DNA of 35,429 nucleotides from Candidatus Bathyarchaeota archaeon (GTDB taxonomy: Archaea > Thermoproteota > Bathyarchaeia > Bathyarchaeales > Bathycorpusculaceae), in NCBI GenBank assembly GCA_003165195.1, contig PLSP01000099.1:2369-37797 (forward strand), read 5' to 3'. Below, piece after piece: positions 1-24,657 of this stretch. The position numbers and the translations under genes are program-made. Position 1 is the first letter of the stretch, and each line of letters begins with the position of its first letter. The notes under the pieces are model-generated. The model was not told the DNA's origin and made no database searches. It saw only the letters and a list, made by a program, of their open reading frames with translations.

Positions 1-162
1 ACGGGGGTAACTAGTCAAGGGAAAACTTGTGATGAAGCTTTAAAGAGTTTCCAAGAGGTTTTTGGACTGTGGTTTGAATGTGCGGAAGGCTGGGAGAAGG
101 ACCGAGCGCTGAATGGTGAGCCCGTGGCTACCTCGGTTTTGGACAAAGTAATTAAGAACTAA
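1..162 (+). CDS. HicB-like antitoxin, C-terminal part
   Basis: An open frame runs from the first base of the window to a TAA at 160-162, giving 53 residues with no start in view. The beginning reads GVTSQGKTCDEALKSF, which matches the middle of HicB-family (UPF0150-type) antitoxins, where a G-x-T-x-G-x-T-x-x-E-A-x pattern precedes a long helix. HicB proteins neutralise a small HicA ribonuclease, and the partner should lie to the left of the window. The C-terminus carries no visible ribbon-helix-helix domain, so this may be a short HicB. The assignment rests on this one motif, and the gene is truncated only because the window starts inside it. Confidence 0.6.
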   Translation, partial: TGVTSQGKTCDEALKSFQEVFGLWFECAEGWEKDRALNGEPVATSVLDKVIKN

Positions 163-174
163 TTTTTGAAGGGT

Positions 175-318
175 TTAAACATACATTGAATGGTTAATAG
201 TGACTCTGAAGTTATGGTGGCAGTTTTTACAATTATAGGCTTGAATAGTAAAACTATAGTTTTTTAGTTCCCTTGAGGGTTTGTCAACTTCTTTACCGCA
301 GTTAGGGCAGTGAGCCAT
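175..318 (-). CDS. 47-aa zinc-ribbon protein
   Basis: A short minus-strand frame starts at ATG (318-316) and ends at TAA (177-175). The product has two CxxC knuckles, CPNCGKE at residues 4-10 and CKNCHH at 30-35, spaced as in a treble-clef or zinc-ribbon fold, with a basic, aromatic stretch between them. Small stand-alone zinc ribbons of this size are common in archaea and usually bind nucleic acid or act as protein adaptors; no specific role can be read here. A TATA-like GTTTATA lies about 40 bases upstream on the same strand. It is convergent with the HicB-like gene, the two stops being 12 bases apart. The four correctly spaced cysteines in such a short frame make it very likely real. Confidence 0.72.
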   Translation of the reverse strand: MAHCPNCGKEVDKPSRELKNYSFTIQAYNCKNCHHNFRVTINHSMYV

Positions 319-636
319 TTATTATCAAATTATCTTTTTGAATGCGCTAAGGCTATAAACTTTATGAATCCAGAATATGCTAAATACTCTTGTTGTTCTA
401 ATGAATCGGCAGAAAGTCGGGGGTTCAAATCCCATCGGGCCCGTCAAACCTTAAGAATTCATCAAACGATTATTCTACTGGTGAATTACCGCTTGGATCA
501 TCCTAATCGCGGTTTTACTTTTTTGCTAATTAGGATAATTTACTATTTTGCTTAGGAAGATCCTATTTCATTAAGAGTCAATTGCTTGGACATAATGTTT
601 TTACGATGCCTTGGTCGTATTACTTGCTGATTAACG
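319..636. other. Intergenic stretch with a tRNA 3' fragment
   Basis: This stretch holds the promoter side of the zinc-ribbon gene, the tRNA-like fragment at 411-443, and the upstream region of the first VapBC pair. The open frame at 310-555 runs straight through the tRNA fragment, has no family resemblance, and is not accepted as a gene. Confidence 0.5.
411..443 (+). repeat. tRNA 3'-end fragment, copy A (att-like)
   Basis: The bases read like the T-arm and 3' acceptor strand of a tRNA: loop TTCAAAT (424-430), CCCAT, then CGGGCCC and a G discriminator. No matching 5' half (GGGCCCG followed by a D-arm) is found upstream in the window, and the T-stem has mismatches, so this is not a working tRNA. 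A second copy lies exactly 1680 bp downstream (2091-2123), with 26 of 33 bases shared. Tyrosine integrases of archaeal elements use tRNA 3' ends as attachment sites, which makes att remnants the simplest reading. Confidence 0.6.
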
Positions 637-846
637 ATGGAGACAGTTACCGTTTCGAAAAAATACCAGATTGTTATACCTGAAAAACTTCGTAAGCAAT
701 CAGGAATCAAACCTGGTGACAAGATGGTTGCCATAGCAAAGCATGGAATTATTCAGTATATCCCTATACGACCCATAAAGGACACGGAAGGATTTATCCT
801 TGGACTTGACACCAAAAACCTTCGCGATGAGTCTGACAGAAATTGA
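637..846 (+). CDS. vapB: VapB-type antitoxin (AbrB/SpoVT fold)
   Basis: The 69-aa product begins METVTVSKKYQIVIPEKLRK, the classic swapped-hairpin AbrB/SpoVT DNA-binding domain (VTVSxKxQIxIPxxxR, then GIKPGDK). The remaining C-terminal 30 residues would wrap the toxin. VapB antitoxins block the PIN-domain ribonuclease encoded next to them and repress their own promoter as a complex. The stop codon overlaps the TTG start of the next gene (ATTGA at 842-846), so the pair is translationally coupled. The gene lies about 190 bp downstream of the tRNA fragment. Confidence 0.88.
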   Translation: METVTVSKKYQIVIPEKLRKQSGIKPGDKMVAIAKHGIIQYIPIRPIKDTEGFILGLDTKNLRDESDRN

Positions 847-1214
847 TCAGTATTGACAGCTCGGGTTGGATTGAACGGTTCACCAAAGGACCTAAAGCGT
901 CCCTATACAAACCTGTAATTGAGTCAACTCAGCCTAAGGAAATTCTCACTTCGGTTGTAGTACTTTATGAAGTTTACAAGAAGATAAAAAAGCTAAAGGG
1001 GGAAGAAGAAGCGCTACTTGCAGTTGCGGTTCTTAGCCAGACCACCATCGCGCCCATAGACCAAACAATTTCGCTTGAGGCTGCGGATTACAGCCTTGAA
1101 CATAATTTGCATTTCTCAGAGGCTCTTGTTTATGCTACCGCACGTCATTGGAAGGCTAAACTTTACACAAGTGATGAAGATTTGCGAGAATTACCAGACG
1201 TGTGCCTAATATAG
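843..1214 (+). CDS. vapC: VapC-type PIN-domain ribonuclease toxin
   Basis: The product is a 123-aa PIN domain. The first acidic residue is in ISIDSSGWIERF (D5), a conserved Glu follows in the LYEVYKKIKK helix, and the C-terminal acidic cluster lies in KLYTSDEDLRELPDV. A hydrophobic helix (LLAVAVLSQTTIAPID) sits in the usual place. PIN toxins cleave RNA, often tRNA or rRNA, with Mg2+. The only start that keeps the first strand and the catalytic Asp is TTG at 843, overlapping the antitoxin stop. A weak start on the toxin and an ATG on the antitoxin should favour antitoxin excess. All the expected acidic positions are present, so the toxin looks intact. Confidence 0.87.
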   Translation: MISIDSSGWIERFTKGPKASLYKPVIESTQPKEILTSVVVLYEVYKKIKKLKGEEEALLAVAVLSQTTIAPIDQTISLEAADYSLEHNLHFSEALVYATARHWKAKLYTSDEDLRELPDVCLI

Positions 1215-1457
1215 TCTATCACGTGGTAGTTTGGGTGAAGGCAAACGATATGGCGAGTCGGGCACAAATTTCTAAAATCTCTGAATCTATTTCTTAAGCA
1301 AATAACGCAATTACCCGATTTGCATTCACTAAACTAGAACTTTCTTAAATCAAGGTGAGTGTTCGCTTAAATAATTAATCGCATTCCATCAGACTGCTTC
1401 CGTCCTCAGGCATTTGTACTGTTATTGGCCTTCAAGGCAACGCTTTAATGCATATAG
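1215..1457. other. Intergenic region between two TA modules
   Basis: I see no gene on either strand here. Just after the first toxin stop there is a quasi-palindrome around CACGTG (1216-1229). The rest is AT-rich and leads into the promoter of the second module. Confidence 0.4.
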
Positions 1458-1471
1458 TTATACATGTATAA
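1458..1471. promoter_or_regulatory. Perfect 14-bp palindrome, probable vapB operator
   Basis: TTATACATGTATAA is a perfect inverted repeat ending 3 bases before the ATG of the second antitoxin, and an AT-rich CATATAG lies just upstream. AbrB/MazE-fold antitoxins are dimers that bind palindromes overlapping their own promoter, so this is the natural autoregulatory site. Its closeness to the ATG suggests a leaderless or nearly leaderless transcript. Confidence 0.6.
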
Positions 1472-1474
1472 TTT

Positions 1475-1681
1475 ATGAATGCTAAAGCCAAAGTTCGGTG
1501 CTGGGGAAATTCCTTAGGCATTGTTCTCCCAAAAGCTCTCGTTGACGAAGAAGAACTAAAAGAAGGCGAAGAAGTCGAGGTAACCATCCGAAAAGTATCT
1601 GATGTCCGTTCTCTTCGAGGGAAATACCCTTTCAAGAACCTGCAAAATGAAAAAGAAGAGATGAAACGCAGCTGGGAATAA
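1475..1681 (+). CDS. MazE/VapB-type antitoxin (AbrB fold)
   Basis: This 68-aa protein begins MNAKAKVRCWGNSLGIVLPK, a typical MazE-like swapped hairpin (WGNSLGIxLPK), followed by an acidic stretch (DEEELKEGEEVEVTI) and a basic C-terminus with YPFKNLQNEKEEMKRSWE, the kind of tail that occupies a PIN toxin active site. It belongs to a different antitoxin subfamily from the one at 637. The palindrome at 1458-1471 is its likely operator. The stop at 1679-1681 is directly followed by the TTG start of the toxin. Confidence 0.88.
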   Translation: MNAKAKVRCWGNSLGIVLPKALVDEEELKEGEEVEVTIRKVSDVRSLRGKYPFKNLQNEKEEMKRSWE

Positions 1682-1682
1682 A

Positions 1683-2063
1683 TTGGAAAAAACCAAGTTT
1701 TTCTACGATAGCTACGCGGTTATCGCTTATCTTAGCGACAATTCCAACTACAGGGATTATTTTGAAGGAAACGACGGCGTCTTAACCAAATTAAACCTAA
1801 TAGAAATTACCTATCGAACAATAGAACTCCACGGAGAAGAAGCGGCAGCCGAAGTAGTGAAACTCTTCGCTAAATACACTGTTGACTTTGGGCCAACTGA
1901 TATTGTGGAGTCAATGAAGCTCCGGTCAAAACTCAAGAAAGACGGTCGTAACATATCCTCCGCTGACGCCGTCGGATACTATCTTGCGCTAAAAAATAAG
2001 CTAAAATTCTTGACTGGTGACAAAGAATTCAAGGGACTAGACAACGTTGAATTTGTTAAGTGA
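1683..2063 (+). CDS. vapC: VapC-type PIN-domain ribonuclease toxin
   Basis: The 126-aa PIN protein begins with a first strand FFYDSYAVIAYL (Asp near residue 9). A conserved Glu sits in TKLNLIEITYRTIE, the third acidic residue in the helix beginning SSADAVGYYLALK, and a fourth in LTGDKEFKGLDNVEF. This is the full four-acid set for Mg2+-dependent RNA cleavage. The start is TTG at 1683, one base after the antitoxin stop, so again the toxin has the weaker start. It forms the second TA module of the strip. The two PIN proteins are clearly different in sequence, so the modules are not tandem duplicates. Confidence 0.87.
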   Translation: MEKTKFFYDSYAVIAYLSDNSNYRDYFEGNDGVLTKLNLIEITYRTIELHGEEAAAEVVKLFAKYTVDFGPTDIVESMKLRSKLKKDGRNISSADAVGYYLALKNKLKFLTGDKEFKGLDNVEFVK

Positions 2064-2085
2064 CTATTAAAAACGTTTCAGCAAT

Positions 2086-2229
2086 TTAACTGGAAGTCAT
2101 AGGTTCAAATCCCACCGAGCCCGCTATTGGTTCCGCCCTTGTTTGAATAGGGTAAAAAGAAAAAGCTAAAACCATTGTAACAATCAATAGGGCGGTAATT
2201 ATTAGAAGCAAGAATCGCTTTCTAATCAA
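2086..2229 (-). CDS. Possible 47-aa membrane-anchored peptide reading into a tRNA fragment
   Basis: A minus-strand frame from TTG (2229) to TAA (2086) encodes MIRKRFLLLIITALL followed by more hydrophobic residues, a strong signal-anchor with basic N-terminus, and then a short polar tail. The last residues (AGSVGFEPMTSS) are simply the antisense translation of the tRNA 3' fragment at 2091-2123. The best reading is a gene whose original 3' part was lost at the recombination point. It may equally be a chance frame: the N-terminal segment is convincing as a membrane helix but has no recognisable family. No clear ribosome site is seen. Confidence 0.3.
   Translation of the reverse strand: MIRKRFLLLIITALLIVTMVLAFSFYPIQTRAEPIAGSVGFEPMTSS
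2091..2123 (+). repeat. tRNA 3'-end fragment, copy B (att-like)
   Basis: This is the second copy of the tRNA T-loop and acceptor 3' strand: GGTTCAAATCCCA, then CCGAGCCCG. Like copy A it lacks a 5' half and has a broken T-stem, while the 3' side of the loop and the acceptor strand are best kept. Same orientation and a 1680-bp offset from copy A give a direct repeat bracketing both VapBC modules, as expected for attL/attR-type remnants or stacked integrations into one tRNA gene. Confidence 0.6.
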
Positions 2230-2408
2230 AGAGTCGCCCGCCCAATCCTTATATTGTTTTTCATGACTTATGGTGGCTAAACTTTTGACATAATCCTGGA
2301 TAACCTATGACTTAAAATAGGTTTTATGGTACGTTCCTTTACTAGTACATTTGCTTACAAATAATAATAAAAACTGGTAAGGACAAATACGTCTGAAGGG
2401 AACTGATA
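2230..2408. other. Intergenic region
   Basis: No gene is supported. The stretch is AT-rich and supplies the upstream region of the winged-helix protein; an AAGGGAAC purine stretch ending about 5 bases before its TTG can serve as ribosome site. Confidence 0.4.
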
Positions 2409-3077
2409 TTGAATCTGCAGAAAATATCGCTTGCCTTGATCTTATCGTTTGTAATTGTTGTCTCACTTGTAGCCGTAATTCAACTGGAGAAAAACAATTC
2501 ATTAAGCTGTTTCAGTCCAAATGCTCCTTTCAATTCTAATCTGGCAGGCCAAGGCGCTTTTGAAACAACTTTTATCGCGACTACCAATTATTTACCCAGT
2601 CAGGGCGCTCTTGAAGACAGCAATTCAACACGAGCTGCGATGTACAATTTCATTGAGGCAAATCCGGGCATTCAATTTAGAGGTATATGTGCTGGATTAG
2701 ATATTGCAATCGGAACTGCTGAGTTCCATTTAGGAGTCCTCAAGAAAGCTGGTCTAATCTCGTTCTTCCGTGATGGCAAATATAAACGGTTTTTCGTCAC
2801 GAAAAAATTCTCGTTGAGCGAAATGAAACTAATTTCGCTTCTAAGACATGAAACACTAAGAAAAATTCTCGAGAGAATAACCGACAAGACAACAGTTTCA
2901 CATCACGAATTAGCCTCTCAGCTGTCAATTACTTCGCAAGGACTGACTTGGCAGATGAATCGACTCCGAGCCGAAGGAATAGTTCAAGAAAACACGGATG
3001 GAATAAAAGTTACATATTCCTTAAACGAAGTTTACCTCAAAGTCTTGCCCGAACTCCTTTGCAAACTAGAAAAATGA
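2409..3077 (+). CDS. Tandem winged-helix protein with N-terminal membrane segment
   Basis: The 222-aa product starts at TTG 2409 behind an AAGGGAAC ribosome site. Residues 6-25 form a hydrophobic helix (LALILSFVIVVSLVAVIQL); a 40-residue polar linker with one Cys follows. Two winged-helix domains come next: the first around residues 75-130 (IQFRGICAGLDIAIGTAEFH as recognition region), the second around 140-215 (HHELASQLSITSQGLTWQMN). This layout, one anchor plus two MarR/ArsR-like wHTH, recurs in archaea; the function is unsettled. With few charges flanking the helix, topology cannot be decided from sequence: a cleaved signal would put DNA-binding domains outside, which makes a retained anchor with cytoplasmic domains more sensible. 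The target genes are unknown. Confidence 0.75.
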   Translation: MNLQKISLALILSFVIVVSLVAVIQLEKNNSLSCFSPNAPFNSNLAGQGAFETTFIATTNYLPSQGALEDSNSTRAAMYNFIEANPGIQFRGICAGLDIAIGTAEFHLGVLKKAGLISFFRDGKYKRFFVTKKFSLSEMKLISLLRHETLRKILERITDKTTVSHHELASQLSITSQGLTWQMNRLRAEGIVQENTDGIKVTYSLNEVYLKVLPELLCKLEK

Positions 3078-3401
3078 GGCAGCGGTAAAGTCTGTACTGT
3101 CGCATAACCCAGTTTTTAATAGTTCTTCAGCCATCAATCTGGTCTTCCGATTGATTTCAAGCTTCTTAAGGCTAATATTTCAACCGCGCCAAAGCAAGTG
3201 CACCGAAGGGTTCACCGAGAAAGATTTGGAGCATCCAGAGCTCGCAGACCACATGCGATTCTGCTCAAGTAATCAAGGTAACGTTCCGGTGGACTTGCGG
3301 TGGCAAGCGACCTCACGAGTGAAAATGCAGCCCAGTCTTAAGGATAAACTACATATGAATAAAGACAGGGAAAAATAAAAAATAGTTTCTGCTCTTACTA
3401 C
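3078..3401. other. Non-coding or remnant stretch of 324 bp
   Basis: An open frame of 75 codons (TTG 3151 to 3378) crosses this stretch, but it has no ribosome site, no recognisable fold and mixed residue composition. Its middle (CTEGFTEKDLEHPELADH) looks protein-like enough to suggest a decayed gene, yet I cannot support it as a working CDS. Nothing else is visible. Confidence 0.3.
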
Positions 3402-4854: not shown

Positions 4855-7107
4855 CTAACCGCTTGCTTTAACTTTGAAGATGGCAACTTGAGTGTTGAAG
4901 TATGCAAGGGTGAAGGCTGGATCATTTGTGAATTTGGAGTTTACCTCAAAATCGAGATTAGCTATGTATGAAACTGAGTACTCCTGGAGGGTTGCTTGGT
5001 AGTTGAAAGTGGTTATAGGCCGACTGGCAACTGGTTTTTGCGGGTTTTGAGCATTTGTGAGTAATGTACTGTTAAGGTTTGATTGGTTTTCTATGTCGTT
5101 TTTCGATACCGGATAGATTTCCACTAAAACCTGTATTTCAGCTGAGGACTTACCCTGCAAGTTATAACATAGTTGAGTAATGCAGGGGTTTTGAGTGTTA
5201 ACGCAAGAGATTTCTGGTTGGTTCTGCACGAAAAATAGTTGACCCACCTCGTTCATGCCAGTATCCAGCATTGCAACTGTGTTTCCGCCTGGCTCAAGAA
5301 ATTTGCCATCCGAGTTCAAGGTGTAGTTAGCCCAGTCTAACAAGACGTTTTGGTTGATACTTTGAATTGTAATTGTCATATTTGCAAAAGCCACCCCGCT
5401 TGTAACTTTCAGAATTTCTGAGTAGTTGAAGTCGCTGTTTTCCCTGTTAACGATTATAGTGGGGCTATTGGTTTGTTCACCTACTATTTGCATGCTGGTT
5501 ACGGGGATCTGAGTTAAATCAGTGGTCTGCATGGACCCAGCGCTATTAGACAGCAAAGTAATTTCGCTATTGTTGAATTGGCAGAATGCATAGGGAAAGG
5601 GCGTACCGCTGAGGTCTGCCAAAAACTGGGGGTTATGCCGGCCAATGTAGCCGCCATCCTCTCTAACTTGAATGTAACCATTATCTATCATGTAGTCAGT
5701 ATCAAGCAGCAGCGAAGCGTTCTGTGCTGGATTAAGCTCGCGGGCAACCGTCAAAAACTGTGGCGACACGGCGCTTATTGTGGGTCGCTGAGCAAATCCA
5801 CCGAGCCACCACCCGTAAGTAGCGTCAGAAACGAACACAGAATTAGCAGGCGTGTTTTGCTTGCTCCACTGTATCGCTTGATAGCCTGCGTTATTCATAA
5901 TTTGGTAATAATTCTGATCGGAAATGCCCTGCCAAGGCGTCAAAAAAATAGGTAAGTCCAAGAAAATAGCAAATAAGCAAACGAATACAAAGATGGCATA
6001 GATTCTCTTGCGAGTCAAGGTTTTGGAGATTTTTGGCGCCCATTTGTTTGCCCAACTTTTGTTTTTTTGCATTTGGTTATTTATCGTATCTATTGTTCGC
6101 GCAAAATAAGCAGAGCCATAATCCACCATTACACCAAGGATTATGATGACTGGCAGCATAAGGAAGTACATGAATCGATTGTAGTCGATGTAGAGCCCAA
6201 ACATGTATCCTTGCGTTAACACTAAGGGAACAAAAAGCCACACTATCAAAAGAAATGTGGGAAGCGACAAAAAGTGGCCCTTGCATTTTTTTGAGAACAA
6301 AAAGTAGGGGACAAGGCACGCGGAGAACACCAGAAACGTTTCGAAGGTAACGATTCTTGTGGAAAGTATCGCTTGATTAATGACGCTTAACGCATTAATT
6401 GTCGTGTTAGCACTTAAATAGGCTGGTATTGCGCTTGCAAGATAAGGCGAAGCAAGAAAAGCTCCGATGATAATTGGCAGCAGCCAGTACAGCAGATTTG
6501 TCCGTGATGTACCGAACGTTTTAGGAGCAATCATCGCAATGAACACAGTTACGGTTGTGACGGCCAAAAAGACTGCGGTGCTTAAAGAATGAGTAAAGAA
6601 AATTGAGGCTGTCAGAAGAGAGGTTGGCACAAGAAACGGCGTTAATGAGAACCTTTCTCTTTGAAGGTACATGTAGAAGGTCAAAGGAATAAGAAGCAAC
6701 GCGATTGTGTTAGGATAGCCTCCCCACAGGAGCATTCCAATATCATACCCTGAGATAGCGACTAAAAATGCAACTATGAAAGCAGCTGATTCATTCCATA
6801 CACTTCTGGTTATCAAGAACGCCGCTAAAACTATAAGCGACGAAAATAATGCCACAATAATTGCTTGCGCCAGATAATCAGGTATCCCAGTCATAATAAT
6901 TATCATGGAAGCGAAGATGTGGTATCCTGGAAATTCCAGTTGCAAACCTCCGCCCATTTGGTAGAAATCCCACAGGAAATTTGTGTTACCTGACTGTGTA
7001 ATTGAGTTTATAACGCTAGCGTGAAAACCGATGTCAGCGCCTGGCGGAAATGTTTCTCGAAGCAAGAAAAATAGTCGATAGAAAAACGCGAAAATGAAGA
7101 TAAGCAA
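4855..7107 (-). CDS. Large GT-C-like membrane protein (PTPS-related/DUF6541 type)
   Basis: The 750-aa product has about 11-12 membrane helices over residues 1-390 and a soluble C-terminal half of about 360 residues rich in beta-type sequence. The first loop carries PPGADIGFHASVINSI, an acidic motif placed like the catalytic Asp of GT-C glycosyltransferases, followed by EFPGYH. The soluble part opens with AIQWSKQNTPANSVFVSDAT and WWLGGFAQRPTIS, typical of archaeal membrane proteins related to oligosaccharyl- and mannosyltransferases. A role in surface glycan or N-glycan assembly is inferred. The first standard start in frame is TTG 7107, but no ribosome site precedes it; an AGGAGA at 7149-7154 points to an in-frame ATA at 7140-7138, which would add 11 residues. 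It is divergent from the GT4 gene at 7435. Confidence 0.75.
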   Translation of the reverse strand: MLIFIFAFFYRLFFLLRETFPPGADIGFHASVINSITQSGNTNFLWDFYQMGGGLQLEFPGYHIFASMIIIMTGIPDYLAQAIIVALFSSLIVLAAFLITRSVWNESAAFIVAFLVAISGYDIGMLLWGGYPNTIALLLIPLTFYMYLQRERFSLTPFLVPTSLLTASIFFTHSLSTAVFLAVTTVTVFIAMIAPKTFGTSRTNLLYWLLPIIIGAFLASPYLASAIPAYLSANTTINALSVINQAILSTRIVTFETFLVFSACLVPYFLFSKKCKGHFLSLPTFLLIVWLFVPLVLTQGYMFGLYIDYNRFMYFLMLPVIIILGVMVDYGSAYFARTIDTINNQMQKNKSWANKWAPKISKTLTRKRIYAIFVFVCLFAIFLDLPIFLTPWQGISDQNYYQIMNNAGYQAIQWSKQNTPANSVFVSDATYGWWLGGFAQRPTISAVSPQFLTVARELNPAQNASLLLDTDYMIDNGYIQVREDGGYIGRHNPQFLADLSGTPFPYAFCQFNNSEITLLSNSAGSMQTTDLTQIPVTSMQIVGEQTNSPTIIVNRENSDFNYSEILKVTSGVAFANMTITIQSINQNVLLDWANYTLNSDGKFLEPGGNTVAMLDTGMNEVGQLFFVQNQPEISCVNTQNPCITQLCYNLQGKSSAEIQVLVEIYPVSKNDIENQSNLNSTLLTNAQNPQKPVASRPITTFNYQATLQEYSVSYIANLDFEVNSKFTNDPAFTLAYFNTQVAIFKVKASG

Positions 7108-24581: not shown

Positions 24582-24657
24582 AGCCCGGTAGTGTAGTGGT
24601 CAAGCATAGGGGCCTCTGGAGCCCTTGACGAGAGTTCGAATCTCTCCCGGGCTACCA
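24582..24657 (+). tRNA. tRNA-Gln (anticodon CTG), CCA encoded
   Basis: A full cloverleaf is present: acceptor AGCCCGG with CCGGGCT, anticodon stem GGGGC/GCCCT around loop CTCTGGA (anticodon CTG), and a perfect T-arm GAGAG-TTCGAAT-CTCTC. The discriminator is A and CCA is encoded at 24655-24657. The D-arm GTAGTGTAGTGGTCAAGCAT is that of archaeal tRNA-Gln. No intron is seen. Confidence 0.95.

Follow-up and report, generated by a model that had tools for sequence, protein, structure and literature searches.

The window analysed here is a stretch of 35,429 nucleotides from a Candidatus Bathyarchaeota archaeon, bases 2369-37797 of contig PLSP01000099.1 (C157 below) in an assembly of 3.16 Mb (171 contigs, 95.3% complete, 5.5% contamination). 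Near its left end, two direct copies of the 3' part of a tRNA-Arg bracket two toxin-antitoxin (TA) pairs of the VapBC type, and this bracketed segment is the subject of the present text. Its features, in window coordinates, are as follows.

411-443, + strand: fragment 1, comprising the T-arm and the acceptor 3' strand of a tRNA-Arg, with its 25-mer core at 419-443; left end of the unit.
637-846, + strand: vapB1, AbrB/MazE-type antitoxin, 69 aa (PF04014, E 2.7e-8; TIGR01439 AbrB, E 1.2e-9).
843-1214, + strand: vapC1, PIN-domain toxin, 123 aa, TTG start, overlapping vapB1 (PF01850, E 2.6e-14).
1436-2063, + strand: segment matching a 700-bp cassette in G037:C113, a contig of a related genome (blastn, 628 bp, 84.1% identity).
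1475-1681, + strand: vapB2, MazE/AbrB-type antitoxin, 68 aa (PF04014, E 3.1e-9).
1683-2063, + strand: vapC2, PIN-domain toxin, 126 aa, TTG start (PF01850, E 6.6e-6).
2091-2123, + strand: fragment 2, 3' part of a tRNA-Arg, 25-mer core at 2099-2123, with likeness from about 2071 onward; right end of the unit.

Both pairs have the organisation of type II VapBC systems, with a PIN gene directly behind a small gene for a DNA-binding antitoxin, the two genes overlapping or lying 1 bp apart. A toxic RNase activity of VapC1 and VapC2 and its neutralisation by the partner proteins are predicted. Four acidic positions of VapC2 (D9, E41, D95 and D113) are invariant in 5/5 aligned homologues, and we take them to be the acidic residues of the PIN active site, with a catalytic role. 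An earlier sequence-only reading of the window had described two different VapBC pairs and no integrase between the fragments, and the Pfam matches (PF04014 and PF01850 for each pair) bear this out: only vapB and vapC frames were recognised there. Besides, neither of two integrase families has a match on C157, the 10 matches to PF00589 and the five to PF16795 in this genome all lying elsewhere, and tblastn with three integrases of relatives gave zero matches in the locus that covers the unit (L043). Elements of the Sulfolobus spindle-shaped virus (SSV) type have an integrase gene overlapping the attachment site, and no integrase frame lies at either fragment. The direct repeats of a tRNA 3' end and the lack of a recombinase gene inside give the unit the make-up of elements flanked by attachment (att) sites, similar to the cis-mobilizable elements (CIMEs).

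The two fragments lie on the + strand with an offset of 1680 bp and 26/33 identical bases, so the coordinates, strand and identity given in the sequence-only reading are all correct. In a 25-mer register made up of T-stem, T-loop, T-stem, acceptor and discriminator, fragment 1 scores 23/25 and fragment 2 scores 22/25 against tRNA-Arg ends. The longest alignments are with tRNA-Arg(TCT) in both cases (33/38 columns for fragment 1; 39/48 columns, tRNA positions 29-76, for fragment 2) and reach from the 3' end back into the anticodon stem or loop. The attachment-site interpretation had been made to depend beforehand on a match with some tRNA of the same genome, and tRNA-Arg genes of this genome are matched by both fragments. 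These genes are tRNA-Arg(TCG) on C27 and tRNA-Arg(TCT) on C170; a third tRNA-Arg end, at C160:63490, corresponds to the relatives' tRNA-Arg(CCG), a scaffold gap of two N having removed the 5' half. Neither tRNA-Arg(GCG) nor tRNA-Arg(CCT) was recognised among the decoded tRNA matches of the genome. The 5' side of the fragments had been described as decayed and the 3' side as the best kept. For the 5' side this is too simple: in fragment 2 it still resembles tRNA-Arg(TCT) toward the anticodon loop (17/23, versus 10 for CCG and 12 for TCG), and its 3' side is nearest to tRNA-Arg(TCG) (20/22, slightly above the 18/22 of TCT). Although the numbers are small, mixed copies of this kind would be the expected product of a crossover within the tRNA 3' part between isoacceptors.

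Chance similarity is ruled out by two controls. In 60 first-order Markov copies of the window there were 0.017 matches per window at scores of at least 20/25 and zero at 21 or more; the second control, based on ATP-binding cassette (ABC) transporter loci, is given below. A pattern for tRNA-Arg ends with up to two mismatches had 12 matches in the whole genome, several of them intact tRNAs, versus 0 for the reversed pattern. As had also been noticed before, the window holds no intact parent tRNA, its sole tRNA being tRNA-Gln(CTG) at 24582, and ARAGORN found zero tRNAs in the contig's first 12,000 bases, of which 2,368 precede the window. Fragment 1 lies 2.8 kb from the contig start, and neither a parent tRNA nor an integrase was found in that interval. 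The suggestion that successive elements are stacked behind a tRNA has a parallel elsewhere in the genome, at C170, where an intact tRNA-Arg(TCT) is accompanied by fragments at 6785, 5794 and, weaker, 1631.

The strongest evidence for such a cassette comes from G037 (Candidatus Bathyarchaeota archaeon AM-2014_bin-0583), which belongs to the same genus as the genome of the window. A DNA search with window positions 150-3100 against 90 genomes of the family detected the second VapBC pair on contig C113 of G037 (CAIUPH010000113.1), with 84% identity over 628 bp. This homologue begins 23 bp past the end of an intact tRNA-Arg(CCG), and the aligned right-hand copy of the tRNA 3' end starts 10 bp beyond the vapC stop. 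The locus was searched in 32 genomes of the genus and empty sites were aligned for two, G016 and G019, which have the same neighbours and one intact tRNA-Arg(CCG), with the insert absent. The offsets of the flanking alignments give a difference of 700 bp in both comparisons, and the flank alignments overlap at the empty site by 27 bp (G016) and 26 bp (G019), that is, over the tRNA from the T-arm to the CCA. The G037 locus is an exact insertion of a vapBC-only unit together with one copy of the tRNA 3' end. Its right-hand copy appears chimeric as well, the 5' part being closer to tRNA-Arg(TCT) (20/23 versus 13) and the 3' part closer to tRNA-Arg(CCG) (19/22 versus 17). The bases that follow fragment 2 in the window (2124-2135, ATTGGTTC) are also those that follow the tRNA end opening the G037 cassette (L086:9018-9029); this match is possibly the trace of a tandem or circular junction, or due to chance.

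The association of TA genes with tRNA ends recurs across the genome of the window. Orphan tRNA 3' fragments lie within about 1.5 kb of PIN loci in 10/30 cases at scores of at least 19/25, in 8/30 at 20 or more and in 7/30 at 21 or more, versus 3, 1 and 0 at the same thresholds when the PIN loci are reversed, and versus 0/30 at both of the thresholds applied to ABC-transporter loci (at least 19/25 and at least 20). The sets comprised 30 of the 38 PIN matches, the window among them, and 30 of the 61 ABC matches. Defining a bracket as two tRNA ends of the same strand and isotype less than 2 kb apart, with intact tRNAs allowed as partners, nine brackets were found, and 6/9 hold TA genes, on Arg, Gly and Ser tRNAs.

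C84: Gly, 1832 bp; PIN gene, MazE-type antitoxin and a second PIN match below the cut-off.
C96: Met, 582 bp; 131-aa frame of no family; second copy near-complete (80/94 columns).
C116: Pro, 1811 bp; 437-aa frame, ATPase-like by eye, no Pfam family.
C124: Ser, 807 bp; ribbon-helix-helix-type antitoxin and PIN gene.
C139: Pro, 1420 bp; 315-aa frame of no family.
C154: Arg, 870 bp; ParE/RelE toxin and a small upstream gene of no assigned family.
C157 (window): Arg, 1680 bp; the two VapBC pairs.
C160: Gly, 814 bp; MazE and PIN genes; second copy a near-whole tRNA (69/73 columns).
C170: Arg, 991 bp; UPF0175 gene and a DUF3368 match below the cut-off.

At least one end of 5/6 TA brackets comes from searches not based on PIN loci, and only C84 depends on the PIN-locus search. 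The library of tRNA ends was built from ARAGORN calls in the fetched loci, and its doubtful entries, C42 and C163, match themselves by construction. The fragments vary in their decay; some start in the T-arm or the anticodon loop, with lengths down to 21-27 bp. The general motif GGTTCRANYCC has 93 matches in the genome and 28 when reversed. Of the 93, Rfam tRNAs account for 25; another 25 have scores of at least 20/25, 14 of 18-19 and 29 of less. The class at 20/25 or more includes the intron-bearing tRNA-Trp (C85), the scaffold-gapped tRNA-Arg(CCG) (C160), the doubtful C163 and C42, and three integrase-bearing elements.

Two loci of this survey call for a further remark. The two tRNA-Pro(TGG) copies of C116:954-2842 (L129), 1.8 kb apart with the 437-aa frame between them, are both ARAGORN-positive. 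At C68:13238-15063 (L133:1239-3064), a gene for a chagasin-type inhibitor (PF09394) lies beside a gene for a papain-type protease (PF00112), between weak (19/25) tRNA-Ser-like ends; this inhibitor/protease pair is possibly cargo.

Larger elements carrying an integrase occur in the same genomes. Three of them, in the genome of the window, combine an intact tRNA with a distant fragment and a match to PF16795, the archaeal phage integrase family.

C145:8344-14625: tRNA-Ser(TGA), fragment 6.2 kb away, PF16795 at 99 bits.
C126:9617-14214: tRNA-Gly(CCC), fragment 4.5 kb away, PF16795 at 30 bits.
C96:51866-57402: tRNA-Val(TAC), fragment 5.5 kb away, PF16795 in two pieces of 33 and 27 bits.

In all three the integrase frame begins inside the far-end fragment that repeats the end of the intact tRNA; close to its start the frame of C96 contains two N, and the match of this frame to the family is split in two. 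The relatives have elements at tRNA-Gly(tcc) of about 10.6 kb (G017), 6.3 kb (G037) and 3.3 kb (G022), with repeats of 46-52 bp; the integrase of G022 matches PF16795 with E 1.3e-24, that of G017 only below the cut-off. With integrase frames at C145, C126 and C96 and in tRNA-Gly(tcc) elements of relatives, the cassettes thus share their genomes with autonomous elements that target tRNA 3' ends. As a source of further TA cassettes, the tRNA-Gly(tcc) hot spot of the relatives was considered and rejected, its cargo being other genes; in G030 a frame resembling a metallo-hydrolase lies there between weak fragments. A separate case is C65:1189-2787 (L325), where a frame of the archaeal integrase kind faces away from a VapBC-like pair; by eye, the antitoxin frame of this pair starts within an apparent tRNA 3' end.

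From the observed fragments, the gene content and the 700-bp difference between occupied and empty loci of the homologous cassette in relatives, it seems on balance somewhat probable that this segment of the window is a single small, non-autonomous integrative unit or a stack of two, with TA genes as the only cargo, tRNA-Arg 3' halves as attachment sites and a recombinase acting in trans. Site-specific recombination in the common tRNA 3' end would release a unit of this kind as a circle and insert it, with a crossover presumably in the T-loop/T-arm region and perhaps in the anticodon loop. The target tRNA would be rebuilt on insertion, and a 3' fragment would remain at the far end. SSV-type tyrosine integrases of the larger archaeal elements, which use the same kind of site in the same genomes, could provide the recombinase, and addiction by the TA pair would retain the cassette in the population. 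The unit of the window would have arisen in the same way as the G037 cassette.

Several observations weigh against this interpretation. The earlier suggestion of a small TA cassette that moved through a tRNA site is supported in part: the homologue of the second pair is present or absent as a 700-bp unit at a tRNA-Arg of the relatives, and the window's own unit may be of the same kind. Among the matches listed for the 90 family genomes, no relative had both flanks at one place, only pieces, and no relative was found in the genome contigs when window 4855-7107 served as a conserved neighbour to locate the empty site. The DNA that separates the two VapBC pairs shows no tRNA remnant above background (its best local score is 8.8, versus a null median of 10.0 from other segments), and given this lack the unit may be a composite.

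The surroundings of the first pair in the relatives also fit poorly. DNA homologues of vapC1, with 76-80% identity, occur in G018, G028, G023, G037:C114 and G022. G028 and G027 have a VapBC1 homologue behind a tRNA-Met; in G022 the tRNA-Met sequence in front of the homologue is full-length but not called by ARAGORN, and in G037:C114 it lacks its 5' part. No second, bracketing fragment was found at these tRNA-Met loci (three or four relatives), and the homologues of G018 and G023 show none at all. This pair may be an old tRNA neighbour rather than a cassette.

Other brackets raise similar difficulties. The VapBC bracket of C124 sits within about 2.5 kb of extra DNA, and 5/5 examined relatives have only 64-100 bp between the same two genes, with no tRNA end. 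Integration into a tRNA gene at this spot is therefore not how the bracket arose; either it was carried in together with both ends, or the ends arrived with an earlier insert. The window unit, with no tRNA near it, may be a case of the same kind. Three of the nine brackets (C96, C116 and C139) contain no recognisable TA gene, and PADLOC and NCBIfam gave nothing useful for them. The second tRNA copies of C96 and C160 are near-complete, and C116 has two whole tRNAs. The C160 locus has, apart from its cassette, about 0.9 kb more than the empty locus of G028, and homologues of its VapBC in five relatives had no tRNA nearby, with one fragment at 19/25. In wider archaea, 23 loci with VapC2 homologues were found and 22 examined, of which 2/22 have a tRNA end within 1 kb, namely the G037 locus itself and L346; VapC2 was therefore discarded as a cassette marker at this range.

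Some side observations concern these surroundings. A repeat of about 70-140 bp at C124:12151-12292 (L126), with copies of 76-98% identity on C162, C29, C33, C96, C149, C86 and C16, resembles a miniature inverted-repeat transposable element and lies near the right side of the lineage-specific insertion. To the left of the window unit, the frame at window 1-162 (C157:2345-2530) encodes a protein close, by eye, to the DUF7387 (HicB-like) protein of C170:7073-7309, which has a HicA gene and a tRNA-Arg fragment as neighbours. About 200 bp at window 185-386, with a small gene on the - strand that looks zinc-ribbon-like by eye, have further copies at 77-80%, several of them in G017 and others in G037, G018 and G029.

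Among the other explanations, decay of larger islands survives best, although we regard it as unlikely. Elements with an integrase would have entered tRNA-Arg genes and shrunk to their TA pairs, whose loss is toxic, the fragments being old remnants of right-hand attachment sites (attR). Integrase-bearing elements of 4.5-6.2 kb with the same plan of tRNA and fragment do exist in this genome, the fragments are degraded to differing degrees, and TA genes accompany fragments in longer intervals too (HicA by C170:6785, PIN by the tRNA-Cys fragment at C168:59377). Against decay, several brackets are about as tight as the 700-bp insertion of G037, with 807-991 bp at C124, C160, C154 and C170, and independent erosion to one size is possible but less simple. 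In addition, tblastn with the three integrases of relatives at 20 loci gave only matches of 16 and 11 residues in the tRNA-derived part at C160 and a short match at C42, with none at the window. A cassette is favoured over a decayed island because the whole G037 insertion, 700 bp with intact flanks, consists of vapBC alone; the unit of the window might be a product of decay.

An improbable alternative is homologous recombination between copies of tRNA genes, in which the recombination of the cell itself, with no integrase, would have duplicated or exchanged a TA segment beside a tRNA. It would account for the near-complete second copies of C160 and C96 and for the two tRNA-Pro of C116, and the VapBC1 homologues directly behind tRNA-Met would suit it as well, but other fragments go down to 21-27 bp, which is short for that process, and use of the same ends as integrase sites is evident from the three elements that carry an integrase. 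Most improbable is a coincidence in which variable regions gather TA genes and tRNA fragments separately and no unit moves whole: the C124 bracket, enclosed together with other genes and a dispersed repeat in a larger lineage-specific insertion, and the orphan fragments that adjoin non-TA genes, would fit it, yet it accounts poorly for a difference of exactly 700 bp in both comparisons at tRNA-Arg(CCG) and for brackets closed tightly around a single module.

Beyond the window, the cassettes could form a guild of minimal TA elements in Bathyarchaeia, of about 0.7-1.8 kb with one or two modules of different families, whose attachment sites would be the 3' ends of many tRNA isotypes and whose spread would rely on borrowed archaeal integrases. 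As an archaeal counterpart of recombinase-less gene cassettes they would be among the smallest tRNA-targeting elements and would account for the many dispersed TA pairs of these genomes; we advance this tentatively, as somewhat short of an even chance. For the spread of TA pairs through chromosomes without a transposase or an integrase, the G037 cassette, a 700-bp unit bordered exactly by tRNA ends and missing from the same locus of two relatives, offers a concrete and testable route. Orphan tRNA 3' fragments in archaeal genomes would be explained as footprints of such traffic, and pairs of tRNA 3' ends less than 2 kb apart provide a handle to search other lineages.

An integrase-less TA cassette bracketed by tRNA 3' ends was not found in a search of open-access literature (subscription papers and preprints being outside this scope). 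Non-autonomous att-flanked elements as such are already known, and what appears new here is the TA-only cassette bracketed by tRNA 3' ends. In bacteria, CIMEs and other non-autonomous elements flanked by left and right attachment sites lack a recombinase, are thought to be mobile in trans and are described as derivatives of larger conjugative elements. The cassettes described here share with CIMEs the attachment-site flanks and the lack of a recombinase, whereas they carry several unrelated TA modules and involve several tRNA isotypes. Tycheposons of Prochlorococcus are tRNA-targeting mobile elements with cargo, some of them integrase-less; they are bacterial, larger and loaded with different cargo.

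Among archaea, integrases are reported to favour tRNA 3' ends, with 5' limits that vary, and cleavage may border the anticodon or the T loop (Badel et al. 2021, PMC8371274); both classes of fragments found here fit cleavage at such places. In the SSV-type elements, attP lies inside the integrase gene, and C145, C126 and C96 follow this same plan (PMC8371274, PMC4158269, PMC3293823). The window unit and the G037 cassette, unlike them, have no integrase, measure about 0.7-1.7 kb and contain TA genes only. In Caldiarchaeum, scattered tRNA fragments have been attributed to a mobile element (PMC3293823). The cryptic integrated elements of Thaumarchaeota are likewise small, archaeal and tRNA-targeting, with direct repeats and, in one element, VapBC cargo, but the smallest reported measures 2.6 kb, and of their proteins the integrase is reported to be the best conserved (PMC6563490). 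Finally, the vapBC loci of Sulfolobus islandicus also comprise many horizontally moved VapBC pairs in an archaeon with mobile elements at tRNA genes; their flanks are reported to be mostly degenerate insertion sequences (PMC3718332), whereas the flanks here are tRNA 3' fragments.

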